Notes under the pieces: generated by a model
Databases searched by the model: none
Seen by the model: only the letters and a program-made list of their open reading frames with translations
What the model was told of the DNA's origin: nothing
Translations under genes and position numbers: made by a program
Shown: positions 18,988-61,297 of the stretch, in pieces
Position numbering within the stretch: the stretch's first letter is position 1
How the letters are laid out: the number at the start of each line of letters is the position of its first letter
NCBI GenBank assembly: GCA_034231615.1
Contig: CM067322.1
Location: 101,579,587-101,643,586 of the forward strand
Length of the DNA: 64,000 bases
Reading direction: 5' to 3'
Source: Meghimatium bilineatum
Taxonomy: Eukaryota; Mollusca; Gastropoda; Stylommatophora; Philomycidae

Positions 18988-18995
18988 AGAGTGTG

Positions 18996-20402: not shown

Positions 20403-20409
20403 CAGGGGG

Positions 20410-21175: not shown

Positions 21176-21189
21176 CGCACGTTTTTAAT

Positions 21190-21517: not shown

Positions 21518-21538
21518 GATGTATAGTTATTGGTAACT
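21518..21538 (-). repeat. 21-bp inverted-repeat arm at inversion junction (right)
   Basis: Satellite piece in reverse orientation between the element's 5' end and the resumed sense half. Part of it (AACTATACATCG) also follows the (CTAA)n tail at 23104, consistent with the original target-site duplication. Confidence 0.8.
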
Positions 21539-22807
21539 GAGTTTCAGGGAACATGTTGATCACATTATCATAAGGGCAGGCAAAGGCTTAGCACAATGAA
21601 GGTTATGGCTGCTGCGCAGTGTGAGCAAAGATTGTTATTTCTTTTGTACCAGGGTTTGGTTGTGGCTGTGGTGGAATATGCACTGGCAATTCTGACTCTT
21701 AGTCAAACTCAGATCGAAAGACTGGATAGAGTCCAGAATGCATCAATGCGTATCATTCTGGGATGCACAAGAGACACATCGACAAGAGCTATGCGATACC
21801 TACTTGACTGCCCAACAGCTGAGCATAGATTACAGTATTGCCGTGCACGGGCGTACCTTCAAATACATGCAGATAAGGAACACCCGTTGCATTCCGAAAT
21901 ACAGAAAGTTAAAGGCAGCAGACTCAAGCGAGGAAGGTCGTGGATCGGACGTGCTGAGGATGTCATACAAAGCGTGTGCAGATTACAGGATGTGGCAGCA
22001 GGTGCGGAATGGATAGGTCTACCCACATATTTCGAAACTTGTTTGAGAGTAGTAATATCACTTAGCAGGGAATGCAGAGAATGGTGTCCCACAGCTGTGG
22101 AGAAAGAAGTGCAGGCTTTAATCAGTGAGAATACCAAAGAGGGGGATGTGATTATATACACTGATGGATCTGTAATTAGGCATGTTCGCAGTGCTTGGGC
22201 CTTTACAGCTCAGTGCGCAGGTAAAACGATTAAGGAGGAAAGTGGTGCCTTTGCGGTCACTACGAGTAGTATGACCATGGGGACTATGGCGGTGACCAAG
22301 GCATTTGAGTGGCTACGCACACAGAAGGTAACGCAGGTCTGCATCTTGAGTGACTCTATGAGTATGATTAAGAAGGTACAAGTGGGTCTCGTTCGCGAAC
22401 AGTGGATTGAGGCCTTGAGAAATGCGAGCCTGAAAGCGGTTACATTTATTTTCGTGCCGGGACATGTGGGCGTTCGAGGCAATGAAAGAGCGGATCAACT
22501 GGCATCGTGTGCGATTGTGGCACAGGGCGATGGGGCAATGGATCGCGCTGACGTTTTGAACTCCTTAAGAGATATAACACGCGAGAGTGATACTAATGTG
22601 GATGATGATTCCTTTTCAATGGCTAGGATTAAAGATCAGAGATTGAAATGCGGTGTTGCTAGAGGTGAACATTTTGGAGGGCGCAGAAGAATGATGGTCA
22701 ACCAGCATAGGACCGGTACTGTCAGCAGAAGTGTGATGGCGGATACACTCAAGGAGAGTTCGGAGCAACTATGGATATGTCAAGTTTGCAGTGATGATTA
22801 TCCGACG

Positions 22808-22816
<9 letters not shown>
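21539..22816 (+). pseudogene. I-type LINE, RT thumb and RNase H (sense half)
   Basis: From 21540 the trace reads LSFREHVDHIIIRAGKGL, then a one-base frameshift into the long frame 21596-22816. The N-terminal part is RT thumb (VVAVVEYALAILTLSQTQIE, RVQNASMRIILG). RNase H follows with IIYTDGSV (Asp), MGTMAVTKAFEW (at the position of the usual Glu, here Met-Ala), ILSDSMSMI (Asp) and FVPGHVGVRGNERADQLA (His, Asp). The protein ends in VCSDDYPTTN and stops inside the first CTAA units. The apparent loss of the RNase H Glu (copy at 62722 keeps MEILAVTKAL) suggests damage. Confidence 0.9.
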
Positions 22817-24078
<1,262 letters not shown>

Positions 24079-26250: not shown

Positions 26251-26254
26251 GTTA

Positions 26255-26344: not shown

Positions 26345-26519
26345 AAAAATCAGTGTGATCGCTATGGGCACTAAGATGTGACCTAGCAATGCCTGCTTGT
26401 TCATGGACCACCTTGAGCACCAGGTGTGGGAGTCCTATTGTGGGCCCTTCATTGATGTCCCATAGGTATATCGATGATACAATCTGTATCACTAACATGG
26501 CTGAGGCTGAACTGTCACG

Positions 26520-26925
26520 CTTCATTCACTTCATAGATAACTTTCACTCAGCCACCAAGTTACGCTTCATTCACTTCATTGAAAACTTTCACCAGCCACC
26601 AAGTTACGCTTCATTCACTTCATTGATAACTTTCACCCAGCCACCAAGTTACGCTTCATTCACTTCATTGAAAACTTTCACCAGCCACCAAGTTACGCTT
26701 CATTCACTTCATTGAAAACTTTCACCCAGCCACCAAGTTACGCTTCATTCACTTCATTGATAAGTTTCACCCAGCCACCAAGTTACGCTTCATTCACTAC
26801 ATTGATAACTTTCACCAGCCACCAAGTTACGCTTCATTCACTTCATTGATAACTTTCACCCAGCCACCAAGTTACGCTTCATTCACTTCATGGATAACTT
26901 TCACCAGCCACCAAGTTCACATTCA
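26520..26925 (+). repeat. 44-45-bp minisatellite grown from Penelope RT codons
   Basis: About nine units of GCCACCAAGTTACGCTTCAT then TCACTTCATTGATAACTTTCACC(CA). The unit is the codon stretch for RFIHFIDNFHSATK of the RT. Units of 44 and 45 bp are mixed, so the frame shifts between units. Confidence 0.95.
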
Positions 26926-26984
26926 AGATCTCCACCTCCCATGTGAACTTCCTGGATATATCCATCACTATCCAACCTTCCTGT

Positions 26985-27413
26985 CTTAGCACAGCGGTAC
27001 ACTACAAACCGACTGATGCTCTTAGCACATCGGTACACTAAAACCGACTGATGCTCTTAGCACAGCGGTACACTACAAACCGACTGATGCTCTTAGCACA
27101 GCGGTACACTACAAACCGACTGATGCTCTTAGCACATCGGTACACTACAAACCGACTGATGCTCTTAGCACAGCGGTACACTACAAACCGACTGATGCTC
27201 TTAGCACAGCGGTACACTACAAACCGACTGATGCTCTTAGCTCATCGGTACACTACAAACCGACTGATGCTCTTAGCACAGCGGTACACTACAAACCGAC
27301 TGATGCTCTTAGCACAGCGGTACACTACAAACCGACTGATGCTCTTAGCACATCGGTACACTACAAACCGACTGATGCTCTTAGCACATCGGTACACTAC
27401 AAACCGACTGATG
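26985..27413 (+). repeat. 36-bp minisatellite grown from Penelope RT codons
   Basis: About 12 units of CTTAGCACAGCGGTACACTA then CAAACCGACTGATGCT, encoding LSTAVHYKPTDA in the RT frame. An AG/AT variant (CACAGCGG or CACATCGG) alternates. The RT frame continues after the last unit with VHSFLLYTS. Confidence 0.95.
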
Positions 27414-27809
27414 TCCACAGCTTTCTCCTGTATACCTCATTTCATCCTTCTGCCTGTCGCGATTCCCTTTCCATTCTCTCAACTTCTTCGTCTCCGACGT
27501 CTGTGCAGTGATGAAGATAGATTTCTCGAGAAACCCCACGGGATGATGGACTCCTTCCGCTGTCGGAATAGAATTATATTATGAATATCGGATTATTCCG
27601 TCATTTCTCTCTTTGTCTCGTTTTCACATTTATTTGGGTTTGTTTTTGTATATTTCCTTTTTGGTTTTTTTCTTCACATTTCTTATTTGTGTCACCTCTG
27701 ACTTATTTCTATCCTTCCGGCCACCCCCCCCCCCCCATCTCACTTGACACGTGAACGCCAGTTTTTTCGTACTTGCCCGTCGATTTTAGATGTATATGTG
27801 TATGTAACA

Positions 27810-27837
27810 TTGATAAAGGTCGTTTGATCGAAACGTC
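27810..27837 (+). ncRNA. Hammerhead-like ribozyme core in Penelope terminal region, copy 1
   Basis: TTGATAA, an extra A, stem GGTC/GATC with loop GTTT, then GAAACGTC. The layout matches CUGANGA-stem II-GAAA of hammerheads known from Penelope-like elements. The core bases at positions 3 and 8 are U and A instead of C and G. Folding of stems I and III was not verified, so activity is unknown. Confidence 0.5.
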
Positions 27838-27934
27838 GATTTGTGCCTGTGATTATGTGTGCGTCTAGCTATTAACAAAACTTCATTACCCCGTTTCAAG
27901 CTTTCCTGTTGGATTTCAGTTTTGCGCAGTTAGT

Positions 27935-28085
27935 ACATTGTATGTTCTACATATGACATTGGTATGTTCCAGTTCTATTCTTGTTATTTTCAAGATATGT
28001 TCTTTTTATGTTCTAGTCATAATTTGGTTATGTTCCTATTTTATTCTACGTATGTTCTTGTTATGCTCTATACTGGTTTGAATTT
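27935..28085. repeat. 22-bp minisatellite, second segment
   Basis: TATGTTCTACATATG and TTCTTGTTATGTTCTA motifs, a degenerate continuation of the array at 26255-26344. Confidence 0.7.
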
Positions 28086-28596
28086 ACTTCTATAAATGAT
28101 ATTCGCTTATTTAGACATCATATCAGTTCACCTGGTCATTAACTTCTCGTGGTTACTTGAATTGTACTCATATCATGATTCGTGAAGTCATCAAAGAGGT
28201 CAAGATCAAAATGACTAACATTTTTGGCAATAACTCGTGACAGGTTCATGAGAATCTCATGAAACGTAGTTAGCACAAAAATCTATGTCCTTATTATTGA
28301 ATGCCTATAAAAGATTGTCAGTCCTCGAATACATTTAGCTGAAAACTAAATGGTTCATCTCACTACAGAACAATTCATCATCAATGGACGCTTACAGACT
28401 CGACAATCACAACGTGTTGTGGCCAGAAATGTAATGTAGTTAGACGCACCCCCATTAGCAGCATGTGGAGGCGATTTCAGCAAACTGGCTCAGTGGCAGC
28501 CCAGCCGCCAATTGGAAGATCCAGTCATAAGTCCTGCCGAAGACTACTTCATACAGCTCCATCAGCTCAGAAATAAATTTGCACCTGCGCCCCTCC

Positions 28597-28690
28597 AGAG
28601 TCCCACTCAATGCCCTGTCACAGTCCCACTCAATGCCCTGTCACAGTCCCACTCAATGCCCTGTCACAATCCACTCAATGCCAGCAGCTC
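28597..28690 (+). repeat. 23-bp minisatellite inside Tc1 remnant
   Basis: Four units of AGTCCCACTCAATGCCCTGT plus CAC, the last shortened. Confidence 0.9.
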
Positions 28691-28932
28691 GTTGAATTTC
28701 ATATCAAACGGCTGCACACCGCCCTTTTTTAATGGAGATAGAATACCATATAGAGGACCTATTCTTACGGACCGGCATTGTCAGAACACTGCAGTGGGTG
28801 AACCAGCATCGTTAATGTACCATTGGGAATAACCGGAGACCGGTTTGATTTATTGATGAATCATTTTTTGTGTGTGCTTCAGAAACACGTTAGACGGAGA
28901 AGAGTGTACCGCAGAGTTCTGCCCACGGTTGT

Positions 28933-29445
28933 TGAGGATTCTGTGAACAACGTTGCTGAGGATTCTGTGAACAACGTTGCTGAGGATTCTGTGAACAACG
29001 TTGCTGAGGATTCTGTGAACAACGTTGCTGAGGATTCTGTGAACAACGTTGCTGAGGATTCTGTGAACAACGTTGCTGAGGATTCTGTGAACAACGTTGC
29101 TGAGGATTCTGTGAACAACGTCACTGAGGATTCTGTGAACAACGTTGCTGAGGATTCTGTGAACAACGTTGCTGAGGATTCTGTGAACAACGTTGCTGAG
29201 GATTCTGTGAACAACGTTGCTGAGGATTCTGTGAACAACGTTGCTGAGGATTCTGTGAACAACGTTGCTGAGGATTCTGTGAACAACGTTGCTGAGGATT
29301 CTGTGAACAACGTTGCTGAGGATTCTGTGAACAACGTTGCTGAGGATTCTGTGAACAACGTTGCTGAGGATTCTGTGAACAACGTTGCTGAGGATTCTGT
29401 GAACAACGCTGCTGAGGATTCTGTGAACAACGTCACTGAGGCTTC
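28933..29445 (+). repeat. 24-bp minisatellite grown from Tc1 transposase codons
   Basis: About 21 units of GTTGCTGAGGATTCTGTGAA plus CAAC, reading AEDSVNNV in the frame that begins RRRVYRRVLPTVVEDSVNNV. Units are nearly identical, indicating recent growth. Confidence 0.95.
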
Positions 29446-29494
29446 TTCACATTGTGGTGAAGGTGTACTGATGTAAGGGGGGGGGGTGATCAAC

Positions 29495-29590
29495 TTCATG
29501 GGAAGAAGAGATCTATTGCAAACTGAAGGACTCCTGAATGCCGAACGATACACCTCTCAAACTGAAGGACTCCTGAATGCCGAACGATAA
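29495..29590 (+). repeat. Tandem duplication in Tc1 remnant
   Basis: CAAACTGAAGGACTCCTGAATGCCGAACGATA occurs twice, offset by about 40 bp (29518 and 29558). The copied segment is the transposase block read as EGLLNAERY. Confidence 0.85.
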
Positions 29591-30074
29591 GTTGCTTAAA
29601 TTGTTCGTTCTCGCGTCCTTCCAAGTTTGGCTGCACGAGGGTAGATTTTGCAGCAGGATAACAGTCGACCTCATGTGGTACAACTCACCACCCAGCTTCT
29701 AGCTTAAAGTAACGTCCAGACCATTCCGTGGCCAGTCATGTCATCCCATAGAACACTAATGGGATGAACCCAACAATCGACTCCACCAGCGAGACGTGGC
29801 TCCAGCCAATCTTCGACAGTTGTTTCATGCACTGCGGGAAGAGTGGGCAGCCATCCCACAACAACAGAACCAACGACTAATCGGATCCATGTCACGGAGA
29901 TATCGTTCTTTGATAGAGGTATGAGGAGGCCATACACCTTTACTGAAACGGAGGCATCAGTCGCAAAGAATCAAAGTTCAAACCAAATTTAATGAACATC
30001 ATTTCATTGTTAAAGTCAGCGTTTCTTCATGCTAAGGTTGAAACATTGATTCCGTAGAATAAAATGTCAGTGGA

Positions 30075-30250
30075 CATGTTCTAGATGTGTTCTCATTATC
30101 TTCTAGATGTGTTCTTCTTATGTTCTAGATATACTCTTATTATGTTCTACATATGTTTTTGTTATGTTCTAGTTACGTTCTATATATGTTCATGTTATGT
30201 TCTAATTATTTTTTTTTAGATATGTTCATGTTATGATCCACTTATGTTTT
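30075..30250. repeat. 22-bp minisatellite, third segment
   Basis: Degenerate TTATGTTCTAGATATGTTC units. It resumes the array interrupted by the Tc1 remnant. Confidence 0.7.
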
Positions 30251-30519
30251 TGCTAGTTATCTGCCGTATAAAATATCTATTAATATACTTGCAGTCTTGT
30301 TTATGACATGGCCACGCTTACAACGAGTGTCGTTGACCTAAATAAGCTCAATAGACCTGGCAATGTCATTAAAAATTTGACTGATGATTCATGTATTTTA
30401 CCTGTACTATGCATGGGGTCAATATTAATATTTTGCGGTCTAGTGGGTTGTTGTCTTTTTGGGGAGGGGGAGGGAGGGCTGGGACTTGTGTCTATGTATT
30501 AGCTGTTTATTACATGACG

Positions 30520-31165
30520 AAAACGTATGTCCTAGGCAGGAAGTCGCTAATAGCGCAGCTCCGCAGTGAAACCAACATGACAACGTATTTAGCTCTTCCA
30601 AACGGAAATGCACACAGATGTGAAACAGAAGTTAAAAGGAGAATAGGAATGGCTAAAAGTACCGTCAATGACATGAGGATATTAGTAACATCTAAACAAA
30701 TTACAAACAAGTTAAAAATTAGAATTATAAAATGCTACAACTATTCTATATTAATGTATGGATCAGAAACATGGACACTAAACAAACAATTAGAAGACAA
30801 AATTGATGCCTTTGAGATGTGGGTGTATAGGAGAATATGGAGAACATCATGGAAAGAGAAGAAAACAAACAAAGAGGTTCTAAAAACACTTAATATGAAG
30901 AAAGAATTACTAAGAGAAATAAAGATCAAGCAAATAAAATATTTTTGACACATTAAAAGACATGACACCTTATTGAAGATCGTACTGGAGGGTAAAGCCA
31001 AAGGGAAGTGAACAAGAGGTAGGCAGAGATACAGGTCGGAGAGCAACATCTCAAGATGGACAGGCTACAGTCTAACAGAGTGCACCACCAAAACAAGAAA
31101 CAGGGGATGTTGGGGGTCTGTTACAGTCCACCTTCGTTACGGAGACGGCACTTGATGATGATGAG
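30520..31165 (+). mobile_element. RTE-like LINE, C-terminal RT region and 3' end
   Basis: Frame 30391-30948 contains TEVKRRIGMAKSTVNDMR, YSILMYGSETWTLNKQLE, DKIDAFEMWVYRRIWRTSW and KKTNKEVLKTL. Past a stop it continues HIKRHDTLLKIVLEGKAKGK. This is the typical C-terminal tail of RTE-like endonuclease-reverse transcriptases. It ends in GATGATGATGAG. The 5' end is lost. Related fragments lie at 12660-12930, 38325-38520, 41245-41275 and 50595-51450. Confidence 0.8.
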
Positions 31166-31304
31166 TTGTTAATGGGTCAAGACTGTGACCCTCTATTATG
31201 TTCTTACATTTACTTTCAGTTCTGTCTATATGAAACTATACTTTCTTCGTTTTCTCCCCTGTCTTCCCCAAATTGTTGATTGGTTGGTTGGTTGCTGATT
31301 CAGC

Positions 31305-32155
31305 GGTATATGGTCTCATGTCCTTTGACCCAAAGCCATTGTGTGATTGATAAGTTGTACAAGCTGTATGCGCAGTCGGAAGATGAGACTCTGGTCTTTC
31401 ATTCCCAAGAGGTTGTTGTTGTCTTTAGGATTTGGGCTGGTCATATATTTATAGAATTCCCTCCGAGTGTTTCCCATGGCCCATATGTTCATCCATTTTT
31501 CTTTACTGTGTGCATGGTTGTTTGTGTATATGGCTGTTCTTGTTGTGCTCCCTTCTTTGCTAGTCTGTCTGCCGTGTCATTGCCAAGTGTGTTTGAGTGA
31601 CCAGGAATCCACTGCATAACAATGCTGACTTCATAAGATGTAAGCATTGTGGTTGGCATGGTGATATATTTTAAATTGATCAGATTTACAATGTTAATCA
31701 CATTATAGTGTTTGAAAAGCGGACATAGTGTCTGTAAAAATCACAATGTTTAGGACTCTTGGTGGAAAGGCGCCGAATATAGTCTTCAGGTGGTACAAGG
31801 AAACTTCTAGGGCAGTTTTTTCAGCTTCATTGTTCGAACAGATCTCCCTACGGGCATCAACCAACTCATTAGATGTTTTGTCTGGATATTCTATATAGAC
31901 ACCATAATCTTCTTTGATCGTAGCTTTTAAAACAGAACCGTCAGTATAAACACGAATCCATTGTTCTAGGTGTCTATTGTTTTCTGTGTTGCTTTCATAA
32001 GACTTACTTAAGACCTTTTACAGACACATCTGTATAGACATTAATCCATTGTTCTGGGTAGGTGTCTATTGTTTTCTGTGTTGCTTTCATAAGACTTACT
32101 GGTTCCGAACTTTTCGCTGCATTATCTCTTAATTGTGTCTTTATTTCTGCAATTT
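31305..32155 (-). mobile_element. RNase H-bearing LINE fragment (second subfamily)
   Basis: Minus-strand trace: EQWIRVYTDGSVLKATIKED, EYPDKTSNELVDARREICSN, NNEAEKTALEVSLYHLKT, IVIFTDTMSAFQTL, then after frame breaks QWIPGHSNTLGNDTADRLAK and a C-terminal part around LRIQLVQLINHTMALG. It is related to but distinct from the copies at 1531 and 6385. A segment of about 75 bp (AAGTCTTATGAAAGCAACAC onward) is tandemly duplicated at 31950-32100. Confidence 0.8.
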
Positions 32156-32159
32156 AAAA

Positions 32160-32630
32160 CATAATTGTGGCGGTAAACATTTTTTCAATATTCTCCAATT
32201 TTTTTCCAATTCCCCAATTTGTTCTAGATCCATGTTTCCAAACGTGTGTTGCACGCGCCACTTGGTGGGGGGGGGGAGGAGGCAATTCGAGATGTATCAA
32301 CATACCTCAATCTTGAAACGTTGATCGCGACGAAAAACATAAGACAAAAACAACAGAACAGAGAGGTTCAGGCAAGACATAGTAGTCTGTAATTAAATCA
32401 ATGCACTCTTAAATATGTACAAATAGGAATAAGAGGGACAACGGAAGAAAATGTTTGAGAAAGTGGCAACAATCAAAGAAGATGTGGGTCTAATCAACGT
32501 GCAAGATGTACACACACAAGCATCATACCGATGGAGCTGGAGAGCTCTGTTTTCTGGTCTATCAGCCTTACAGATTGGGAAACACTGTTCCATATCTCCC
32601 ATTTCTGAATTTTCTTTGCAGATGATATCT
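32160..32630. other. No gene recognised
   Basis: Unassigned sequence with a G-run at 32265-32277. Confidence 0.45.
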
Positions 32631-32634
32631 TCCG

Positions 32635-32942
32635 ATGTAATCTGTTGTCTTTCTCAGAGTGTGATCAATCCATCTTTATTTCTCAGAGTGTGATCAAGCC
32701 ATCTTTGTTTCTCAGAGTGTGATCAAGCCATCTTTGTTTCTCAGAGTGTGATCAATCCATCTTTATTTCTCAGAGTGTGATAAATCCATCTTTATTTCTC
32801 AGAGTGTGATCAAGCCATCTTTATTTCTCAGAGTGTGATCAAGCCATCTTTATTTCTCAGAGTGTGATCAAGCCATCTTTATTTCTCAGAGTGTGATCAA
32901 TCCATCTTTATTTCTCAGAGTGTTACCAATCCATCTTTATTT
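32635..32942. repeat. 29-bp minisatellite, about 10 units
   Basis: Unit TTTATTTCTCAGAGTGTGAT then CAAGCCATC; AATCCATC and AAGCCATC variants are interspersed. Confidence 0.95.
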
Positions 32943-32944
32943 CA

Positions 32945-33780
32945 CTAACATAATTTTGTGAGTAAGCATGATACTGCACTGTTTTCATCGAATCCCCAAC
33001 GTCTGATCCTATCTTGCCCCTCAACGTCTGATCTTATTTTCTTATTTCATATGAAAAAAATCATTCACGAGCAGTTGTTCACATTTGTTTGCAGCTAATG
33101 TTATTTTATCTCTGTCATTTTCCATGTCTCCGATGCCGTGTATTTCGTCAATAACATAATCCTGCTGGCTCAACGAGAATCATTATAACTGTAAAGTGAC
33201 ACGTTTAACTTTATCGTGTCTTTCATTGGTAGCTTCCTGCATACTTTGTGTTGAAAGACATTGACAATTACGGGGAAAGTCACATTAGTTCCTTAGAAGG
33301 AAGATTCCCAATTTAGCCCACAGGTCTTATATGGTCGATGGTCAGAAGACATGCAACAAAAGAGACTTAGTTGACAATGCCCTCCCCCCCCCCCTGCCCA
33401 TATTATGTCGTTCCACCGAATTTTGTGCACACTCTAGCACTTATTCTGTTACACTAGGTTTCTTTGTTCGTAGAATGTCATTCTAAACTTTGGCACATTG
33501 CCTACAGAATCAAACCTGTATGGCTTATAGCAAGATTAGACCTGTAGGGCATATTGCCTTACAAGCCCAACACATGACTTTTAGTACTATACATTCAGCT
33601 TAATCGTGGGTAAGAATACCTCCCTTAACGATTTTTCACAATAAGGTCTTCAAATGTCTTATAAAAAAGATGGAAACATATTTGAAAATGGGAGAAGGGC
33701 CTTTAATTTAGGTAAAATTGCTCCTTACAGAAACCCCCCCCCCCGCCCCTTATCTTGGGATCACCTAACGTAAGTCATGT
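32945..33780. other. No gene recognised
   Basis: Unassigned, with C-runs at 33385-33394 and 33737-33748. Confidence 0.45.
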
Positions 33781-33784
33781 GTTT

Positions 33785-34045
33785 GAGAATATGCTCTTCC
33801 ATCATTTCTCTGTTTGTTTCGTTTCACTATTATTTGGTTATGTTTTTAGATATTTTCTCATTGTGTTGTTTCACCTCTGACCTAGTTTCCACACTTCCGG
33901 GTTATCATCAAATTTAGCTCTGCCACGTGAACGTCAATAGTGATGTTCTTTCTCGTCTTTTTTTTTGTTGTGAATGTGTTCTTGATAAGACCTTTTGGTC
34001 AAAACGACGATGTGGGTGTGTGTTTACAGTGATTAGCAAAACTTG
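33785..34045 (+). mobile_element. Penelope-like element 3' terminal region, copy 2
   Basis: Similar to 27600-27900: CATTTCTCTGTTTGTTTCGT, TTTCACCTCTGAC, CCACGTGAACGTCA and the hammerhead-like motif. No coding part is present. Confidence 0.7.
33982..34008 (+). ncRNA. Hammerhead-like ribozyme core, copy 2
   Basis: TTGATAA, perfect stem GACC/GGTC with loop TTTT, then AAAACGAC, so the usual G12 is A. Probably dead. Confidence 0.4.
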
Positions 34046-34195
34046 ATGAACATGTTCCAAGCCTTACATTACTGTACACTTCATGAACATGTTACCAGCT
34101 TCATATTACTGTAAATGTCATTACCATATTGCAAACCTTACATTACTGTAAACTTTATTACCATGTTGCAAGCCTTACAATACTGAAAACGTAAG
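34036..34195. repeat. About 36-bp repeat at the Penelope 3' edge
   Basis: Roughly five degenerate units of GAACATGTTCCAAGCCTTAC plus ATTACTGTA. The first overlaps the element tail (AGCAAAACTTGATGAACATG), whose counterpart at 27868 is single copy. Confidence 0.75.
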
Positions 34196-34296
34196 TACAT
34201 CCCTGAATAGCATGTTCACGTACATAATATTTTTGGCCCTGGACAACGTTGAGAAGCATTTCCCTGCCACAGAATATACCTCTCAACAGAATGTAT

Positions 34297-34390
34297 TGTA
34301 TCGTGTTGTTTTATCTCGTGTTGTTTTATCTCGTGTTGTTTTATCTCGTGTTGTTTTATCTCGTGTTGTTTTACCTCGTATTGTTGGATT
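34297..34390. repeat. 15-bp minisatellite
   Basis: GTTGTTTTATCTCGT repeated five times, then looser copies to about 34440. Confidence 0.9.
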
Positions 34391-34449
34391 GTTTACCTTG
34401 ATTGTTGGATTATTTCCTGTTTACCTCGTGTTGTTGGATAATTTCCTCG

Positions 34450-34590
34450 CATTTCGTTAGTAGTCACTAGCAGACGACACAAAGTATATAAATAGTGACC
34501 AACGAAAAGCACGGACATAAACACAATAATCGCGTATAAAGGTTTTTTGTGATTCCCCTGGTATTTTTCTATTGGCGAGAGGTCAGGTAC
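34450..34590. mobile_element. MITE-like family E fragment
   Basis: GCAGACGACACAAAGTATAT, GACCAACGAAAAGCACGG and CTATTGGCGAGAGGTCAGG match the copy at 46075-46280. Confidence 0.55.
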
Positions 34591-34669
34591 AACTTACCAA
34601 TGTTACAAAGTGTTATAGCCTTCAGGAGAACAAACTCATCTCGAGTGACGAGGAGTCTTACTATCTAAA

Positions 34670-34795
34670 CAATCTATCTGTCTGTCTGCCTGTCTTCCTT
34701 TCTACCTACCTGTCTCTATGTCTGTTTTCCTGACTATCTCTCTGTCGATCTGTATATTTATCTGTCTGCCTGTCTGCCTATCACTCTATCTACGC
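34670..34795. repeat. TCTG/CCTG tetranucleotide-rich stretch
   Basis: Imperfect TCTGTCTG and CCTGTC repeats. Confidence 0.8.
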
Positions 34796-34865
34796 TCTGT
34801 GAACGATGCTAATGAGAGTCATGAATTTGAAACAATAAGTTAAATACATTATCATTAAAATATAC

Positions 34866-36255
34866 ATGTTGTGTAGTAGGTACAGGTGTTGTGTAGTAGA
34901 TTCAGATGTTGTGTAGTAGGTACAAGTGTTGTGTAGTAGGTACAAGTGTTGTGTAGTAGGTACAGGTGTTGTGCACTAGGTACAGGTGTTGTGTAGTAGG
35001 TACAAGTGTTGTGTAGTAGGTACAAGTGTTGTGTAGTAGGTACAGGTGTTGTGCACTAGGTACAGGTGTTGTGTAGTAGGTTCAGATGTGTAGAAGGTTT
35101 AGATGTTGTATAGTAGGTTGAGATGTTGTGTAGTAGGTTTAGATGTCGTGTAGTAGGTTCAGATGTGTAGTAGGTTTAGATGTTGTGTAGTAGGTTCAGG
35201 TGTTGTGTAGTAGGCTCAGATGTTGTGCACTAGGTACAGGTGTTGTGTAGTAGGTACAGGTGTTGTGTAGTAGGTACAGGTATTGTGTAGTAGGTACAGG
35301 TGTTGTGCACTAGGTACAGGTGTTGTGTAGTAGGTTCAGATGTGTAGTAGGTTTAGATGTTGTATAGTAGGTTTACATGTTGTGTAGTAGGTTTAGATGT
35401 TGTGTAGTAGGTTCAGATGTGTAGTAGGTTTAGATGTTGTATAGTAGGTTTAGATGTTGTGTAGTAGGTTTAGATGTTGTGTTAGGTTCAGATGTTGTGT
35501 AGTAGGTTCAGATGTGTAGTAGGTTTAGATGTTGTGTAGTAGGTTTAGATGTTGTGTAGTAGGTTTAGATGTTGTGTTAGGTTCAGATGTTGTGTAGTAG
35601 GTTCAGATGTGTAGTAGGTTTAGATGTTGTGTAGTAGGTTTAGATGTTGTGTAGTAGGTTCAGATGTGTAGTATGTTTAGATGTTGTGTAGTAGGTTTAG
35701 ATGTTGTGTAGTAGGTTTAGATGTTGTGTAGTAGGTTGAGATGTTGTGTAGTAGGTTCAGATGTGTAGTAGGTTTAGATGTTGTGAAGTAGGTTTAGATG
35801 CTGTGTTAGGTTCAAATGTTGTGTAGTAGGTTCAGATGTGTAGTAGGTTTAGATGTTGTGTAGTAGGTTTAGATGATGTGTAGTAGGTTCAGATATTGTG
35901 TAGTAGGTTCAGATGTGTAGTAGGTTTAGATGATGTGTAGTAGGTTTAGATGCTGTGTAGTAGGTTCAGATGTTGTGTTAGGTTCAGATGTTGTGTAGTA
36001 GGTTCAGATGTTGTATAGTAGGTTTAGATGTTGTGTAGTAGGTTCAGATGTTGTGTAGTAGGTTCAGATGTGTAGTAGGTTTAGATGATGTGTAGTAGGT
36101 TTAGATGTTGTGTAGTAGGTTCAGATGTTGTGTTAGGTTCAGATGTTGTGTAGTAGGTTCAGATGTTGTATAGTAGGTTTAGGTGTTGTGTAGTAGGTTC
36201 AGGTGTTGCATAGTAGGTTCAGGTGTTGTGTAGTAGGTTCAGATGTTGTGTAGTA
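34866..36255. repeat. 20-bp satellite with 16-bp variant units
   Basis: About 70 units of TGTTGTGTAGTAGGTTCAGA and TTTAGA or TACAGG variants. Shortened units (TGTGTAGTAGG) recur regularly, giving a higher-order pattern of about 90-130 bp. Confidence 0.95.
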
Positions 36256-36369
36256 AGCTCAGATGGGCCATCATGGTCGATAGTGGGCACACCACACAAA
36301 CAAAATACTGTTGAACTTGTTTTTGGTTTGAAAGCCAGTCATTTACATTTTACTGGCGGTCGGTGTATC

Positions 36370-36423
36370 TACCTACCTACCTACCCACATATCTGTCTGC
36401 CTGTTTGTTCTGTCGGTATGTGC

Positions 36424-36517
<94 letters not shown>

Positions 36518-36740
36518 GTCTGTCTATCTGTCTGTCTGTATGTCTGTCTGTTTGTCCGTCCGTCCGTCTGTCCGTCTGTCTGTCTGTTTGTCTGTCTATC
36601 TATCTATCCGTCCGTCCGTCCGTCCGTCCGTCCGTCCGTCCGTCCGTCCGTCTGTCTGTCTGTCTGTCTGTCCTCTCTGCCTGCCTGCCTTTGTACCTGT
36701 TTGCCTGCCTGTCTGTCTGTCTATCCATTCATCTATCTAG
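36370..36740. repeat. TATC/TGTC/CCGT microsatellite
   Basis: Blocks of TATC (about 30 units), then TCTG, TCCG and CTGC units. Confidence 0.97.
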
Positions 36741-36744
36741 CGTG

Positions 36745-37140
36745 ACGTCTTTAGCAGAAGGTATTCCTCACCGCCACTAGGTTCTGTCCAGACTGTACTG
36801 CTTGATCTGGTGGCATACTCAAGAGATTTTAGTATCCTATGTGAATCGTACTGTCTTGGTCTGACTAGTGTTCTCGTACCTGGCAACGTTTCCTTCCCTG
36901 ATTAATTTCTCTAACCATGTAACTGTTCAATAATATGTTAGCTTATGTTCTGTGCTTGAACTTTATTATCTCTACAAGCTTCATCTATCATTTATAACCA
37001 TATTACGTCACTGTATAAGGCTGTCCCGATTGTTGTCCCGCTTGTCAGTTTCTGCAGAAACGATGTATAAATAAATGATTAATGATAAGAGCATGGTAAG
37101 TCGGAGTGGACTAACACAGTGACGTTACAAACAGGGGCAT
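36745..37140. other. No gene recognised
   Basis: Unassigned sequence. Confidence 0.45.
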
Positions 37141-37149
37141 GTTTATCCA

Positions 37150-37400
37150 AGTTCGCTGGTTTTATTTGAAATAGTTCCGCGGAAGACGGATGTGTCGAGC
37201 TATTGGCGCACATAAAACTGCGACACAACGCATTTCCATTCTGTGGTCTACATCCTGCTGGAAATCTAGTAGGGCCATGGTCCTGCTATGAGAGAATTAA
37301 AGCGGGAGTTTGAGAATGAAATCTAGTAGGACCATGGTCCTGCTATGAGAGAATTAAAGCGGGAGTATGAGAATGAGCGCTGAAGAAGAAGATTAATAAG
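37150..37400 (+). mobile_element. SINE-like repeat family C with internal duplication
   Basis: Sense orientation: GGAAGACGGATGTGTCGAGC, GCGACACAACGCATTTCCAT, CTACATCCTGCTGGAAATCT, GCGGGAGTTTGAGAATGA and a GAAGAAGAAG tail. The last part of about 57 bp is duplicated in tandem (37264-37320 and 37321-37377). Confidence 0.8.
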
Positions 37401-37414
37401 AAGAAATTTGAAAT

Positions 37415-37872
37415 AGTTGTGAGCCAATCCTTTCCTGTGTTCATGTTTTTGCAGAAGTCTGTGTTGATGTTTTTGCAGAAGTCTGTGTTCATGTTTTTGC
37501 AGAAGTCTGTGTTCATGTTTTTGCAGAAGTCTGTGTTGATGTTTTTGCAGAAGTCTGTGTTCATGTTTTTGCAGAAGTCTGTGTTGATGTTTTTGCAGAA
37601 GTCTGTGTTCATGTTTTTGCAGAAGTCTGTGTTCATGTTTTTGCAGAAGTCTGTGTTCATGTTTTTGCAGAAGTCTGTGTTCATGTTTTTGCAGAAGTCT
37701 GTGTTCATGTTTTTGCAGAAGTCTGTGTTCATGTTTTTGCAGAAGTCTGTGTTCATGTTTTTGCAGAAGTCTGTGTTCATGTTTTTGCAGAAGTCTGTGT
37801 TCATGTTTTTGCAGAAGTCTGTGTTCATGTTTTTGCAGAAGTCTGTGTTCATGTTTTTGCAGAAATCTGTGT
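37415..37872. repeat. 24-bp minisatellite with acceptor-like units (about 19)
   Basis: Unit TTCATGTTTTTGCAGAAGTC then TGTG. TTCATG alternates with TTGATG in a few units. Each unit contains TTTTTGCAG, which resembles a 3' splice site on the + strand. Confidence 0.97.
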
Positions 37873-37913
37873 TGGATCGCCTCTCTGATCATGATATTCT
37901 TATTGTCTTTCTG

Positions 37914-38130
37914 TAACATTTCATTTCATTTCTGTAACATTTCATTTCATTTCTGTAACATTTCATTTCATTTCTGTAACATTTCATTTCATTTCTGTAA
38001 CATTTCATTTCATTTCTGTAACATTTCATTTCATTTCTGTAACATTTCATTTCATTTCTGTAACATTTCATTTCATTTCTGTGACATTTCATTTCATTTC
38101 TGTAACATTTCATTTCATTTCTGTGATATT
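37914..38130. repeat. 21-bp minisatellite, about 10 units
   Basis: Unit CATTTCATTTCATTTCTGTAA; the last units have TGTGA. Confidence 0.97.
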
Positions 38131-38144
38131 TTCATTCTGTTGCG

Positions 38145-38270
38145 AGTTGTCATTTCCCATGTCTCACAGATATGGCAAACCATGGCGCGTTAAAGAGAAG
38201 GTGACACATTTCCCATGTCTTGCAGTCGTAATGCAAAGAATGGCGCGTTGAAGAGAAGGTGAGACAACTA
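38145..38270. repeat. About 62-bp tandem duplication
   Basis: CATTTCCCATGTCTCACAGA through AAGAGAAGGTGA occurs twice with moderate divergence. Confidence 0.75.
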
Positions 38271-38324
38271 AATTGTAAACATCCGCTCACCGGAGTCCTC
38301 TTTGACTTATCGTATTGTGTGTGT

Positions 38325-38520
38325 GTGTGAATAACTAGAAGACAGAATTGATGGCTTTTGGATATGGTTATACAGAAGAATACGGAGAACATCATGGAAA
38401 GAGATGGAAACAAAAAACACAATAGGGAGAACATCAAGGAAATAGGGAAACAAATAAAGAGGTTCTAGCACACACTTGGTATGAAAAATGAAGTTGTTCG
38501 TCCATCACATGATGATGATA
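38325..38520 (+). mobile_element. RTE-like LINE fragment
   Basis: AACTAGAAGACAGAATTGAT and AGAACATCATGGAAAGAGA match the DKIDAFEMW...RTSWK region of the copy at 30520, then a short stretch to GATGATGATAATC. An internal deletion removes most of the 3' part. Confidence 0.65.
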
Positions 38521-38742
38521 ATCATTTTTTGGATCATTTATTACATTCACTTTTCAAATTCAGCGTTATGTCATTGATTACGAGTTCGTAGATGGCTAAT
38601 AAACTCTATTCGAGCTGCTAATGTTTGTGGACAGTTTGGGCATGGGATGACCACTGAAGATGGTTTGTGGTCTACCCATGACTTTCTAGCTACTCTTCGC
38701 TGCTGACCTGCTGCATTTCTCCATTTCTCACAAGATGATGCT

Positions 38743-38885
38743 ATCTGTCTGTCTATCTGTCTGTCCGTCTGTCTGTCTGTCTGCGTGTCTGTCTGTCTGT
38801 CTGTCTGCGTGTCTGTCTGTCCGTCCGTCTGTCTGCCTGCCTGTCTGTCTGTCCGTCTGTCTATCTGTTTGTCCGTCTTTCTATC
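38743..38885. repeat. TCTG/TCCG microsatellite
   Basis: TGTC, TGCG and CCGT units, imperfect. Confidence 0.9.
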
Positions 38886-38969
38886 TAATCTTATTATATA
38901 TATATTGATCTATACCGTGTGGCCTTTGTTTGCCTTCCAGCTTCAGGGTGTAAGAGTTCTCTGGAGATG

Positions 38970-39478
38970 GTCTTCCTGTGTGCTATGTGTAAGCTTGTTC
39001 CTGTGTGCTATGTGTAAGCTTGTTCCTGTGTGCTATGTGTAAGCTTGTTCCTGTGTGCTATGTGTAAGCTTGTTCCTGTGTGCTATGTGTAAGCTTGTTC
39101 CTGTGTGCTATGTGTAAGCTTGTTCCTGTGTGCTATGTGTAAGCTTGTTCCTGTGTGCTATGTGTAAGCTTGTTCCTGTGTGCTATGTGTAAGCTTGTTC
39201 CTGTGTGCTATGTGTAAGCTTGTTCCTGTGTGCTATGTGTAAGCTTGTTCCTGTGTGCTATGTGTAAGCTTGTTCCTGTGTGCTATGTGTAAGCTTGTTC
39301 CTGTGTGCTATGTGTAAGCTTGTTCCTGTGTGCTTTGTGTAAGCTTGTTCCTGTGTGCTATGTGTAAGCTTGTTCCTGTGTGCTATGTGTAAGCTTGTTC
39401 CTGTGTGCTATGTGTAAGCTTGTTCCTGTGTGCTATGTGTAAGCTTGTTCCTGTGTGATATGTGTAAGCTTGTTCCTA
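38970..39478. repeat. 25-bp minisatellite with donor-like units (about 20)
   Basis: Unit GTAAGCTTGTTCCTGTGTGC then TATGT, nearly perfect. Each unit contains TGTGTAAGC, similar to a 5' splice site, and a HindIII site. Confidence 0.97.
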
Positions 39479-39484
39479 TGGCAT

Positions 39485-39880
39485 CTTTGATTTATGTAAT
39501 CCTTCTCTTACATGGTTCACCTCTGGCTGTATAGCCGTGATGTCTATGTGTCCTATCCATTTGTGGCGTGCTGTCTGTTAGTAGTCTGGAAGCGTGTGAG
39601 AACCATTTTATCTTTTGTCTTTTGATGTGTTCCAATACTGGTATTGTTTTAGTTATCTGTCTGATGTTATCGTTTATAATTCTATCTCTTAATGACACTC
39701 CGAGTATTCTTTGTAGACATGTCATTTCTACTGTCGCTATATTTCTTTTGTCTTGTGCTGTCATTGTTCAGGTTTGCCACTGGTAGCACAGTGATGGAAT
39801 AATAATAGTCTTGTATAATGCAACTTTAGTGTCTATGTTTAAATTTTTGTTCTTGAAAATACGTGTATGATATTAACATA
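39485..39880 (-). mobile_element. LINE RT C-terminal fragment
   Basis: Minus-strand trace: KVALYKTIIIPSLCYQWQ, then TCLQRILGVSLRDRIINDNI and PVLEHIKRQKIKWFSHASRL. This is the usual C-terminal pattern of non-LTR endonuclease-RT proteins. Clade not determined. Confidence 0.75.
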
Positions 39881-39884
39881 ACAC

Positions 39885-40130
39885 TTTGAAAACACAGTGG
39901 CCCACACGACACTGGAAACACAGTGGCCCACACGACACTGGAAACACAGTGGCCCACACGACACTGGAAACACAGTGGCCCACACGACACTGGAAACACA
40001 GTGGCCCACACGACACTGGAAACACAGTGGCCCACACGACACTGGAAACACAGTGGCCCACACGACACTGGAAACACAGTGGCCCACACGACACTGGAAA
40101 CACAGTGGCCCACACGACACTAGAAACAAA
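39885..40130. repeat. 26-bp minisatellite, about 9 units
   Basis: Unit ACACAGTGGCCCACACGACA then CTGGAA, almost perfect. Confidence 0.97.
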
Positions 40131-40168
40131 ATAGCGTCCATATTGACGTGACGTAGATCACTTATATA

Positions 40169-41237
40169 CGAGGCGTGTTCAAATGAAAACGGGACTTGTT
40201 ACACCACGCGTGATAGAGCGCACTGATATTGATGATATTTTGCACTAGTAATGAGTATCCAATAATTTACATACGATCACGTGTTCATCTTCCCAGCATG
40301 CATATGTGCTGCAGAAGACTGTTAACAATATGGCGGGTGTGATTCCGAACCCGTCCAAAGTGAATCAGCGTGCTGTGATCCAGTTTCTTTCATTTGAAGG
40401 ATGTCAAGCAGTAGACATTCATCGGAGAATGAAGGCAGCATATGGTGACAAATGTTTGTCGAGGACCAGAGTGATGGAGTGGGTGCGTATGTTTAAAGAC
40501 GGACGTGAGTTAACGGCAGATCTTGCACGGCCAGGTCAGGCGCATATTGTTGCAACAGAAGAAGCCATAGCCGTGCTTGATAAAGCAGTACTGACTGACC
40601 GTCGTCGGAGCATTCGTTCGCTTGCAGAAGAATTCCATATGTCAATTGGGACAGCCCACATGGTTGTTCGGAAGAAATTGAACTATCGGAAGGTGTGTTC
40701 ACAGTGGGTCCCACGGATGTTGACTGACCACCATAAGGAAGAACGGATGGGGTGGAGTTTGAACCACCTGATTCGTTACAGGGCAGAGGGTGGTGCATTT
40801 CTGTTGAGCATTGTGGCAGGTGATGAATCGTGGTGCCACCACTATGAACCGAGCAGCAAAATTGACAGCATGCAATGGAAACATCCAGGTTCACCAAAAC
40901 CCAAAAAATTCAAGACACAGGTTTCTGCAGATTTCCATTTGTTCGGACCGTTGAAGAAAGCACTAAAGGGACAGCGATTCAACAGCGACGCAGACGTGAA
41001 GACAGCGGTGACCACATGGTTCAGAGAACAGCCACGCAACTTTTTCTCGGACGGCATTCGACGTCTACCTAAACAGTGGGATGCTTGCCTAAATGCATAC
41101 GGAGATTTTTTCTGATGAACCCAGGTGCATTCTTATTCACAAGTGGTTGCTTTGTTCAATTCCGTTGAAAATATTAAATTGCGTATGATACTTTTTAAAT
41201 AAATCCACAAGTCCCGTTTTCATTTGAACACGCCTCG
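40169..41237 (+). mobile_element. Internally deleted mariner transposon
   Basis: 31-bp terminal inverted repeats, identical at both ends as read (40169-40199 and 41207-41237, starting CGAGGCGTGTTCAAATGAAA), flanked by TA at 40167-40168 and 41238-41239. It encloses one transposase frame and is about 1.07 kb, against roughly 1.3 kb for full mariners. Matching ends suggest recent movement, which must have used transposase from elsewhere. Its right edge directly adjoins RTE-derived sequence and the 12-bp array. Confidence 0.95.
40330..41115 (+). pseudogene. Mariner transposase with internal deletion
   Basis: ATG at 40330 gives 262 residues; family members have about 345. The N-terminal part has an HTH-type DNA-binding region (RAVIQFLSFEGCQAVDIHRR, then SRTRVMEWVRMFKDGR). 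The first catalytic Asp is D165 in VAGDESWCHHYEP. After KPKKFKTQ the sequence jumps to SADFHLFGPLKKALKGQRF, so the stretch with the second catalytic Asp (HDNARPH region of mariners) is missing. The third Asp, in the (S)DxHLFGPLKK block, appears retained. The frame is intact across the deletion. The product cannot cut DNA but could still bind the inverted repeats. Confidence 0.92.
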
Positions 41238-41244
41238 TAAATAT

Positions 41245-41275
41245 CAAACAAATGAAGTATTTAAGACATGTAAGA
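41245..41275 (+). mobile_element. RTE-like LINE scrap that seeds the 12-bp array
   Basis: Reads IKQMKYLRHVRQDTLLRIL in frame, clearly related to IKQIKYF-stop-HIKRHDTLLKIV at 30923-30985. The 12-bp units begin inside the DTLLRIL codons. Confidence 0.75.
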
Positions 41276-42515
41276 CAGGACACCTTGTTGAGGATCTTGT
41301 TGAGGACCTTGTTGAGGACCTTGTTGAGGACCTTGTTGAGGATCTTGCTGAGGACCTTGTTGAGGATCTTGTTGAGGATCTTGTTGAGGACTTTGTTGAG
41401 GACCTTGTTGAGGATCTTGTTGAGGACCTTGTTGAGGATCTTGTTGAAGACCTTGTTGAAGACCTTGTTGAGGATCTTGTTGAAGACCTTGTTGAGGACC
41501 TCGTTGAAGACCTCGTTGAGGACCTCGTTGAAGACCTTGTTGAAGACCTTGTTGAAGACCTTGTTGAGGATCTTGTTGAGGATCTTGTTGAGGACCTTGT
41601 TGAGGACCTTGTTGAGGACCTTGTTGAGGATCTTGTTGAGGACCTTGTTGAGGATCTTGTTGAAGACCTTGTTGAAGACCTTGTTGAAGACCTTGTTGAG
41701 GATCTTGTTGAAGACCTTGTTGAGGACCTCGTTGAAGACCTTGTTGAGGACCTCGTTGAAGACCTTGTTGAAGACCTTGTTGAAAACCTTGTTGAAGACC
41801 TTGTTGAGGACCTTGTTGAAGACCTTGTTGAAGACATTGTTGAGGATCTTGTTGAGGACCTTGTTGAGGATCTTGTTGAGCACCTTGTTGAGGATCTTGT
41901 TGAAGACCTTGTTGAGGACGTCGTTGAAGACCTTGTTGAAGACCTTGTTGAAGACCTTGTTGAGGACCTCGTTGAAGACCTTGTTGAAGACCTTGTTGAA
42001 GACCTTGTTGAGGACCTTGTTGAAGACCTTGTTAAAGACCTTGTTGAGGACCTTGATGAAGACCTTGTTGAGGATCTTGTTGAAGACCTTGTTGAAGACC
42101 TTGTTGAGGACCTTGTTGAAGACCTTGTTGAAGACCTTGTTGAGGACCTTGTTGAGGACCTTGTTGAAGACCTTGTTGAGGATCTTGTTGAGGACCTTGT
42201 TGACGACCTTGTTGACGACCTTGTTGAAGACCATGTTGAGGACCTTGTTGAGGATCTTGTTGAAGACCTTGTTGAAGACCTTGTTGAAGACCTTGTTGAG
42301 GATCTTGTTGAGGACCTTGTTGAGGATCTTGTTGAAGACATTGTTGAAGACCTTGTTGAAGACCTTGTTGAGGACCTTGTTGAGGATATTATTTAAGACC
42401 TTGTTGAAGACCTTGTTGAGGACCTTGTTTAGGACCTTGTTGAAGACCGTGTTGAAGACCTTGTTGAGGACCTTGTTGAGGACCTTGTTGAGGGCATTGT
42501 TGAAGACATTGTGTA
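41262..42515. repeat. 12-bp minisatellite, about 100 units
   Basis: GACCTTGTTGAG with GAA and GATC variants. All six frames are nearly open because the period is 12, so the long frames (for example 390 residues of LVED) are artefacts. Variant units recur in blocks, pointing to repeated segmental duplication. Confidence 0.97.
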
Positions 42516-42639
42516 GAGTTGAGACATGGCCGAGCTCCGGTAGAAGACATGTTCGCTAAATTAAGTTGGACCCCATTCGTGACGTGTATTATTATTCTGT
42601 GTCACTACGAGTGGCTACTTCATTCGTTTCATTGTCGGG

Positions 42640-43015
42640 CAACATCTGTGGTCTCACCTTCATGCCCACCTGTCGTTATATCTTCTCTTTGGCGCATCAT
42701 GGATAAACCTTCATGCCCACCTGTCGTTTCATCTTCTCTTTAGCGCATCATGGATAAACCTTCATGCCCACCTGTCGTTTCATCTTCTCTTTAGCGCATC
42801 ATGGATAAACCTTCATGCCCACCTGTCGTTTCATCTTCTCTTCAGTGCGCCATGGGCAAAATATTCATGCACACCTTCAGTCTCACCTTCTCTTCAGTGC
42901 GCCATGGGCAAAACATTCATGCACACCTTTAGTCTCACCTTCTCTTCAGTGCGCCATGGGCAAAACATTCATGCACACCTTTAGTCTCACCTTCTCTTCA
43001 GTGCGCCCTGGCAAA
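42640..43015. repeat. About 51-bp minisatellite, 6-7 units
   Basis: TTCATGCCCACCTGTCGTTT then CATCTTCTCTTTAGCGCATC. A second subfamily from 42840 reads CTTCAGTGCGCCATGGGCAA. Confidence 0.95.
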
Positions 43016-43019
43016 CCTT

Positions 43020-43475
43020 TATGCAACCAAATACTGATAAAAATGAAAATAAAATGAGGTATCGACTTTGGAATGTTCTCTGACAAATTTGTTTACGCTG
43101 TGGATCTTTGGACCGTGACCCAGAAAAATAAAAAAAAACCAAGTGCCATACAAGATAACCAGACAACCCTTTTTGTGTGGTTGTCAAAATTTCATAAACA
43201 AGTTATCTAGGGTCGTACAAGGTTTAGTTTTACGTGTGCTAGAGAATTGTTGAATTTGTTGTACTAGCGATTAATTTCTAGTTGACACCTGACCCAACTT
43301 TTAATGCTAGAAAAGATAGACATTGTAGAGGATTTACTTCATTGTTCTTGGGTACCCCACATGTAATCCGTCCCTCTCAAAGATGCGGCACGCCACCTGC
43401 CGAGAGTACCGCTCACAGCACGTACTTTCGTAGATTCAAGAGATAATCCCCAGGGATTTCCGAAAAAATCCTCTT
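43020..43475. other. No gene recognised
   Basis: Unassigned sequence. Confidence 0.45.
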
Positions 43476-43483
43476 TTTATCAA

Positions 43484-43550
43484 GACGACGGGAGCGGGAT
43501 ACAAACTCGCGTATCTTGAGCACAAAGTGAGCGGCTTAACCACTGAACCA
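43484..43550 (-). mobile_element. tRNA-derived SINE head (family H)
   Basis: Minus strand: CTGGTTCAGTGGTTAAGCCG (box A), TTTGTGCTCAAGATACGCG, a degraded box B GAGTTTGTATCCC, then CGTCGTCTTG. Same layout as 16625-16715. Confidence 0.65.
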
Positions 43551-43916
43551 GAGAGTGGCTTACCCATTAAACCAGGGAACAGCTTAACCACTAAACCGGG
43601 GAGCGGCTTAACCACTGAACCAGGGAGTGGCTTAACCACGAAACCAGGGAACAGCTTAACCACTAAACCGGGGAGCGGTTTAACCACTGAACCAGGGAGT
43701 GGCTTAACCACTAAACCAGGGAGCGGCTTAACCACTGAACCAGGGAGTGGCTTAACCACTAAACCAGGGAACAGCTTAACCACTAAACCGGGGAGCGGCT
43801 TAACCACTGAACCAGGGAGTGGCTTAACCACTAAACCAGGGAACAGCTTAACCACTAAACCGGGTAGCGGCTTAACCACTGAACCAGGGAGTGGCTTAAC
43901 CACTAAACCAGTGAGT
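43530..43916 (-). repeat. 24-bp array of Pol III box A motifs (16 units)
   Basis: Each unit read on the minus strand contains TGGTTTAGTGG or TGGTTCAGTGG, matching box A consensus TRGYNNARNGG, followed by TTAAGC. Three unit types (GCGG, GTGG, ACAG) recur in order as a 72-bp higher-order unit. The first unit is the box A of the SINE head at 43484-43550. Confidence 0.9.
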
Positions 43917-61259: not shown

Positions 61260-61297
61260 GTAAGTCAAGCGTGTCATGTTCATTGGAGTAGACGAGT

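Follow-up and report, generated by a model that had tools for sequence, protein, structure and literature searches.

The DNA analyzed here, referred to as the window, is a 64,000-nt stretch (101579587-101643586) of the 105,182,576-base contig CM067322.1 in the genome assembly of the gastropod Meghimatium bilineatum (GCA_034231615.1; 1,612,235,226 bases, 32 contigs). It holds degenerate copies of transposable elements (TEs), among them a Penelope-like element and a Tc1-type transposon, together with minisatellite arrays whose units derive from such elements. An original prediction, made from the sequence alone, proposed at least seven arrays with units taken from the element around them. All seven that it named were recovered by Tandem Repeats Finder (TRF) and each unit matches element sequence, but only four are enclosed by their element (two in the Penelope-like copy and two in the Tc1 copy) and three are not. 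With four further arrays that had not been listed, eleven arrays in the window have element-derived units. Element sequence lies on both sides of the arrays starting at 26517, 26984, 28599, 28928, 37435, 37908, and 38973, and on one side or at the edge of those starting at 2596, 41282, and 43529. Percent matches given by TRF are 95 for array 26517, 97 for both 28928 and 26984, 84 for 43529, and 89 for 41282. The two element copies with enclosed named arrays are:

26346..27935, + strand: degenerate Penelope-like fragment, reverse transcriptase (RT) part (sister alignments)
26517..26917, + strand: 45-bp array, 9.0 units, the unit a segment of the RT part (TRF; single copy in locus L033)
26984..27413, + strand: 36-bp array, 12.0 units, the unit a segment of the RT part (TRF; single copy in L033, L022, and L027)
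28330..30075, + strand: degenerate Tc1-type transposon copy, outer limits approximate (33 colinear sister places; Pfam match in sister L049)
28599..28682, + strand: 23-bp array, 3.7 units, in the Tc1 copy (TRF; sister alignments)
28928..29446, + strand: 24-bp array, 21.6 units, in the Tc1 copy (TRF; sister alignments)

Sisters of the Penelope-like copy were collected with a query from its 3' end; 40 candidates were scored and 20 loci fetched, one of them the window, leaving 19 sisters. Of the 19, three (L033, L022, and L027) extend far enough to include array positions: L033 aligns colinearly with the window copy across both arrays, and L022 and L027 do so across the 36-bp array. The 45-bp unit is present once in L033, where the mapped flanks are 44 bp apart; in L022 it could be placed only by aligning the unit together with its right side, the two-flank mapping having failed there. 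The 36-bp unit is present once in all three sisters, with flanks 35 bp apart in each. The window copy is without approximately 850 bp that L022 retains between the RT part and the 3' untranslated region. We take the element to be Penelope-like from its motifs; searches for a Penelope-type RT or GIY-YIG domain returned no relevant Pfam or PDB match in the window or sister pieces.

For the Tc1 element, the query was the window copy minus its surplus units. Of 3496 candidates 40 were scored, 39 of them outside the window copy. At 33 of these 39 places a single unbroken alignment runs across the two array positions, and in no such case is the place longer than the query. None of eight fetched copies bears an array at the window positions, the eight having been picked as one-piece matches, a choice that favors array-free copies. 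The 24-bp unit is 80% identical to sisters, whose flanks are 85% identical, and matches inside this array reach 97%. At the 23-bp array the sister flanks are only 8-19 bp apart, less than one unit, and the 23-bp unit is therefore partly new sequence. The transposase assignment comes from sister L049, which matches HTH_Tnp_Tc3_2 (PF01498; E 5.5e-10) and the Sleeping Beauty chain 5cr4_A (E 5.4e-4); the other three Tc1 sister pieces scanned gave no Tc1 Pfam match. Reading the window copy by eye also revealed a 2-copy duplication, AACTGAAGGACTCCTGAATGCCGAACGATA, at 29500-29600, which is absent from the TRF list and is a third duplication event in this copy.

The sister copies examined are array-free at all four enclosed named arrays, the opposite of arrays present in every copy of a TE, which had been named in advance as one outcome that would count against the prediction. 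It had also held that a single-copy version of each unit is visible in a sister copy or in the flanking frame. This holds for the Penelope-like and Tc1 arrays, and only partly so for the 23-bp unit; the enclosed single-copy state was not seen at the three arrays at element edges described below. Together, the alignments support the view that the units of enclosed arrays are segments of the surrounding element that were multiplied within single copies.

A replicate came from the random sample of loci. Locus L003 contains a Tc1 copy with arrays of its own, a 26-bp array of 3.1 units (1270-1349) and a 30-bp array of 21.3 units (2021-2658). The position of the 26-bp array is single-copy in L043 and that of the 30-bp array is single-copy in the window copy, while L003 is itself single-copy at both window positions. 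From these reciprocal states it follows that each of the two copies gained two private arrays, at four different positions.

Self-comparison of the sequence with all arrays collapsed revealed three of the unlisted arrays (37435, 37908, and 38973); the fourth emerged from a random draw of arrays described below:

37435..37873, + strand: 24-bp array, 18.3 units, in an interspersed repeat (single copy in L013)
37908..38136, + strand: 21-bp array, 10.9 units, in the same interspersed repeat as the 37435 array (single copy in L013)
38973..39477, + strand: 25-bp array, 20.2 units, in another interspersed repeat (single copy in L015)
47772..48385, probably - strand: 34-bp array, 18.1 units, in a repeat that resembles the tail of a long interspersed element (LINE), strand and label being our reading (39 other places cover the junction block)

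Over the longer alignments, identity to the sisters L013 and L015 is approximately 67 to 71% for the repeats around the first three arrays. For the LINE-tail repeat, 24 of the 39 places were fetched, including L051 and L052, which were picked because they showed a second unit hit (2 of the 39). No long array is present at the 47772 position in 23 of the 24. L052 carries two arrays, with unit lengths of 33 and 48 bp, which overlap the 34-bp unit of the window and reach the end of the fetched stretch, so that one LINE-tail segment has given differing units in two copies. L051 has a second, non-adjacent copy of the unit, L071 a 10-bp duplication, and L072 a 12-bp hit of 2.2 copies elsewhere; no duplication was seen in the remaining 20 fetched sisters.

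The three named arrays that are not enclosed lie at element edges:

41282..42512, + strand: 12-bp array, 102.6 units, its start within the tail of an RTE-like RT and its right side not element-derived (TRF; flank search)
43529..43915, - strand: 24-bp array, 16.1 units, the unit being the terminal part of a tRNA-type short interspersed element (SINE), on the SINE edge (TRF)
2596..2750, + strand: 30-bp array, 5.2 units, at the edge of an interspersed SINE-like repeat, SINE A (TRF)

The left flank of the RTE-tail array, plus approximately one unit, matches tails at window positions 12854-12910 and 30920-30981 and also in random loci, and the stretch in which the array begins has the sequence GACACCTTATTGAAGATC in the sister close to 30970; the right flank of the array has no significant match. 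We presume the tail to be RTE-like; the stretch 30388-30948 gave no relevant Pfam match and a PDB match only at chance level. A mariner-type copy at 40255-41244 directly adjoins this array, with an HTH_48 match below the Pfam cut-off, and a query covering 41120-41281 was swamped by the mariner end and was uninformative on the array. Many sites across the genome match the 3' end of the mariner-type copy over 122-125 bp with identities of up to 100%, and the mariner-type family is therefore probably recent. At the tRNA-type SINE, in which we take a motif to be box A, the 39 other places listed end at query 162-182, in or just beyond the first unit. At SINE A, the 40 other rows listed have their starts between query 165 and 187, within the unit or close to it.

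We think it likely that the enclosed arrays are private minisatellites born in single decayed element copies, by a process that runs genome-wide and to which the elements are bystanders, not targets. Such a birth would begin with one in-place duplication of a short stretch (between 21 and 45 bp for the enclosed arrays), followed by expansion. For some arrays the first duplication may stem from short direct repeats, through slippage or repair, and for the others from a different route, and expansion could proceed by unequal exchange or slippage. Elements would be hit in passing, and arrays would in turn be split by later insertions. It is because elements are multicopy that they reveal the pre-array state. 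A stronger version, put forward tentatively and with more doubt than confidence, sets the birth rate of minisatellites high enough for one dead copy to acquire several private arrays and for one segment to yield different units across copies.

Traces of the first step were sought at the unit ends. In the LINE-tail family, TTCTTGT recurs at approximately 33 bp and TTGTTC at approximately 48 bp in 13 of 22 other copies (L053-L074), and the 33- and 48-bp units of L052 equal the spacing of these 7- and 6-bp direct repeats. The chance of such repeat runs at random positions, tested post hoc, is 0.009 for 33 bp and 0.039 for 48 bp. Microhomologies noticed by eye at other arrays (TGAG, CACAGC, and ACC) showed no excess over random positions, and L052 was the only case to pass. 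A set of 43 clean arrays was defined by a period of 15 or more, 2.9 or more copies, matches of 93% or more, and freedom from indels. Of these, 17 end in an incomplete unit of 3 to 8 bp, where uniform remainders would give 8.7 (p=0.0026), a range chosen with the values in view. Such remainders make up 40% of the clean arrays and 14% of simulated blunt births, and 30% of all remainders lie below zero. As to timing, unit identity to sisters is within 0.05 of flank identity in five of eight arrays, and TRF matches inside these eight arrays are 95 to 100%. For those five arrays only, the comparison supports an expansion that would have followed decay of the element, and the arrays may have been homogenized internally.

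The alternative that survives best treats the window as a local hot spot driven by a mechanism of its own, for instance linked to its position approximately 3.5 Mb from the contig end (101.58-101.64 of 105.18 Mb). Tandem arrays cover 37.7% of the window (24,135 bases in 106 TRF rows), with 28.5 to 45.4% in each of six 10-kb slices, and the mean across 20 random 10-kb loci is 18.4% (median 19.4%, range 0.9 to 59.6%; loci drawn from stretches of 25 contigs, approximately 1,295 of 1,612 Mb). The slices exceed the random loci (Mann-Whitney p=0.0035, neighboring slices not being independent), and 19 loci picked by the Penelope-like 3' end average 13.2%. However, one of the 20 random loci reaches at least 37.7% and stands at 59.6%, and private arrays inside a repeat are seen in L003 and probable in L011 and L013. 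We conclude that the window is tandem-rich, yet inside the range of the sampled loci, and we regard a separate local mechanism as unlikely. The prediction had spoken of an unusually active local process in a region more than half tandem repeat. Its richness is confirmed relative to the random loci, whereas the same type of event occurs in L003, and the proportion was overstated: looser TRF settings give 41% to 43% of the window, and the subregion 26345-43916 reaches 44.5% to 48.9%.

A less probable explanation, and one we would not favor, is that mobile DNA is the preferred raw material, with transposition or retrotransposition seeding the duplications. Eleven window arrays with element-derived units speak for it, as do both SINE arrays by lying on a repeat edge, and for young human elements a connection of this kind is proposed by Ahmed and Liang 2012 (PMC3389668). 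Against it, both the Penelope-like and the Tc1 copy have decayed and the sisters examined are array-free at the array positions, and controls with real DNA also weigh against preference. Among 136 arrays (period at least 20, approximately 60 bp or longer, clear of sequence ends), the unit matched other compared sequence in 26, three of these matching only another array, in a library that also took in the loci collected for the Penelope-like and Tc1 elements. Shuffled units matched in 23/1360 cases, 11 times less often (p=8e-16), whereas random non-array segments of the same length from the same loci matched in 413/1360, significantly more often than array units (Fisher p=0.0056). The shuffled-unit control that accompanied the prediction thus gives the expected excess, but a misleading one: shuffled units are the wrong yardstick, suggesting a special link between arrays and TEs where real-DNA controls show none.

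The junction and flank tests agree. Repeats span 6 of 58 array junctions in the window, fewer than the 26.1% null (p=0.004), and 10 of 88 in the random loci against 17.6% (p=0.16). Both flanks lie in repeats for 0 of 49 window arrays versus 9 of 56 artificial cuts (p=0.003, fewer), and for 6 of 81 arrays versus 29 of 186 cuts in random loci (p=0.08); an initial flank test could have been biased by alignment edges beside masked arrays and was redone with artificial cuts and collapsed arrays. We also drew five unlisted arrays at random from 14 eligible of 41, replacing, before any search, an earlier draw that contained weak, two-copy, and window-edge arrays. Genome-wide searches gave results for four, and one of the four (47772) lies inside an interspersed repeat. 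DNA around array 831 had no other match, array 56061 is not spanned by a repeat and has a short one in its left flank, and array 54788 adjoins a SINE-like repeat that appears to split it; for this array one of 39 other rows extends to query 210, into the unit, and the others end by 191. Enrichment of arrays in mobile DNA is rejected by the unit, junction, and flank tests, and the claim that the process uses mobile DNA in particular as raw material is not borne out: as far as the compared sequence can tell, mobile DNA is not preferred.

It is very improbable that the arrays belong to the elements and spread through transposition, although this does seem to occur in the sampled loci, where aligned copies of one repeat bear arrays of 2.6 to 2.8 units, with related sequence in L030:

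L002 4118-4409, L006 1147-1444, L019 5459-5730: copies of a 106- to 107-bp array in one interspersed repeat

In L019, moreover, arrays occupy corresponding positions (8335 and 9367) in two copies of a different repeat. The single-copy sisters refute this explanation for the four enclosed named arrays, and as a general account it was rejected on the array-free Tc1 and Penelope-like sisters. Least credible of all is an artifact in which the assembler created or collapsed arrays or unit numbers, for although the analysis was of the assembly, units within arrays differ among themselves and flanks stay colinear with sisters.

Several observations weigh against private birth in bystander copies as set out above. 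The single-copy enclosed state was not seen for the three named arrays at the RTE tail and the two repeat edges, and array 47772 has approximately 180 bp of element on its left and only approximately 15 bp on its right. Confined to the window, the unit test gives 12/54 against 30.4%, which is not significant (p=0.24), and the repeat tests detect only families common enough for 0.2 to 0.29 Mb of compared sequence. In three of the eight arrays, identity to the sister is higher for the unit than for its flanks. The 34-bp unit of the window shows no bounding direct repeat (0.61), and exact repeats at unit ends, compared with sisters for 12 arrays, reached p<0.05 in no sister, a test that includes poor mappings (RTE12, L011-30, and Pen45 in L022). 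Short direct repeats are therefore not general.

Insertion into arrays took place as well, and at least four arrays appear split in this way. Three are listed here:

17187..24078, + strand: 42-bp array in halves 17187-18987 and 23112-24078, split by a LINE at 18988-23111 (an element in an older array)
54105..55099, + strand: 28-bp array that a SINE-like repeat at 54556-54787 appears to divide into halves 54105-54555 and 54788-55099
52162..53729, + strand: 24-bp array that a short insertion at 52453-52627, with inverted ends, appears to divide

A 22-bp array (26241-26345, with remnants near 27936-28075 and 30076-30209) appears to be split by the Penelope-like and Tc1 copies themselves. Because the halves are similar (76 to 85% in the best alignments), they would once have been one array. 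The window may thus be layered, with arrays, elements within them, and arrays within those elements, the two processes running side by side.

The LINE at 18988-23111 has its 5' part inverted relative to its 3' part, an arrangement that twin priming would be expected to leave. Its tail is (ACTA)75, and within the 42-bp array the shared sequence ACTATACATC flanks it on both sides. Random locus L005 contains stretches of both LINE parts uninverted at 96-97% identity, with the break at L005 7930/7940. The insertion at 52453-52627 has GC-rich inverted ends (CAGGGCCGG... and ...GGCGGCCCTG) and, from this structure, looks like a non-autonomous DNA element. Farther along the window lies a nuclear receptor exon (60794-61291; zf-C4, E 7.4e-16), which presumably resembles ERR. 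The exon carries a 42-bp tandem duplication (61046-61133) in which QEFCSNSFS occurs twice, and with this tandem copy the duplication process reaches coding DNA also.

If the stronger version with a high birth rate is right, high-copy families would be natural replicate experiments with known pre-array sequence, and it is in this replicate design that the value of the finding lies. Private arrays beside array-free sisters allow a direct before-and-after comparison of the first duplication. The first step of minisatellite birth would then be measurable, as the share of arrays that start from short direct repeats versus another route.

TE-derived minisatellites are already known, and the case described here is a new example. 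Ahmed and Liang 2012 report that 7,276 of 31,472 human minisatellites are TE-derived, and their cut-offs are 95% for unit identity and 40% for GC as minimum values. They describe local expansion, hot spots in some elements, many arrays at a single locus, 300 arrays flanked by direct repeats of 5 to 20 bp, and partial duplications beside Alu 5' ends; of the TE-derived tandem repeats in human, just 6% have a start that the two established models explain. Such repeats are also reviewed in PMC9659126. The direct-repeat birth model of Haber and Louis (per PMC3389668) resembles the case of L052, where the unit lengths of 33 and 48 bp match the distances between 7- and 6-bp repeats in other copies, but differs in that a repeat excess was seen for no array among the 12 compared with sisters. 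LTR12 (PMC3389668), with internal repeats spread by transposition, is like the 106-bp repeat of L002, L006, and L019 and unlike the four enclosed named arrays, which are absent from the sisters examined. Relative to the human set, one copy may here bear two arrays, there is no excess over real-DNA controls, and enclosed arrays have 3.7 to 21.6 units where Alu classes average 2.3 to 2.4. The edge arrays recall the partial duplications at human Alu 5' ends, and the arrays as a whole share with human TE-derived minisatellites (PMC3389668) their element-segment units, the restriction of many of them to a single locus, and their local expansion.

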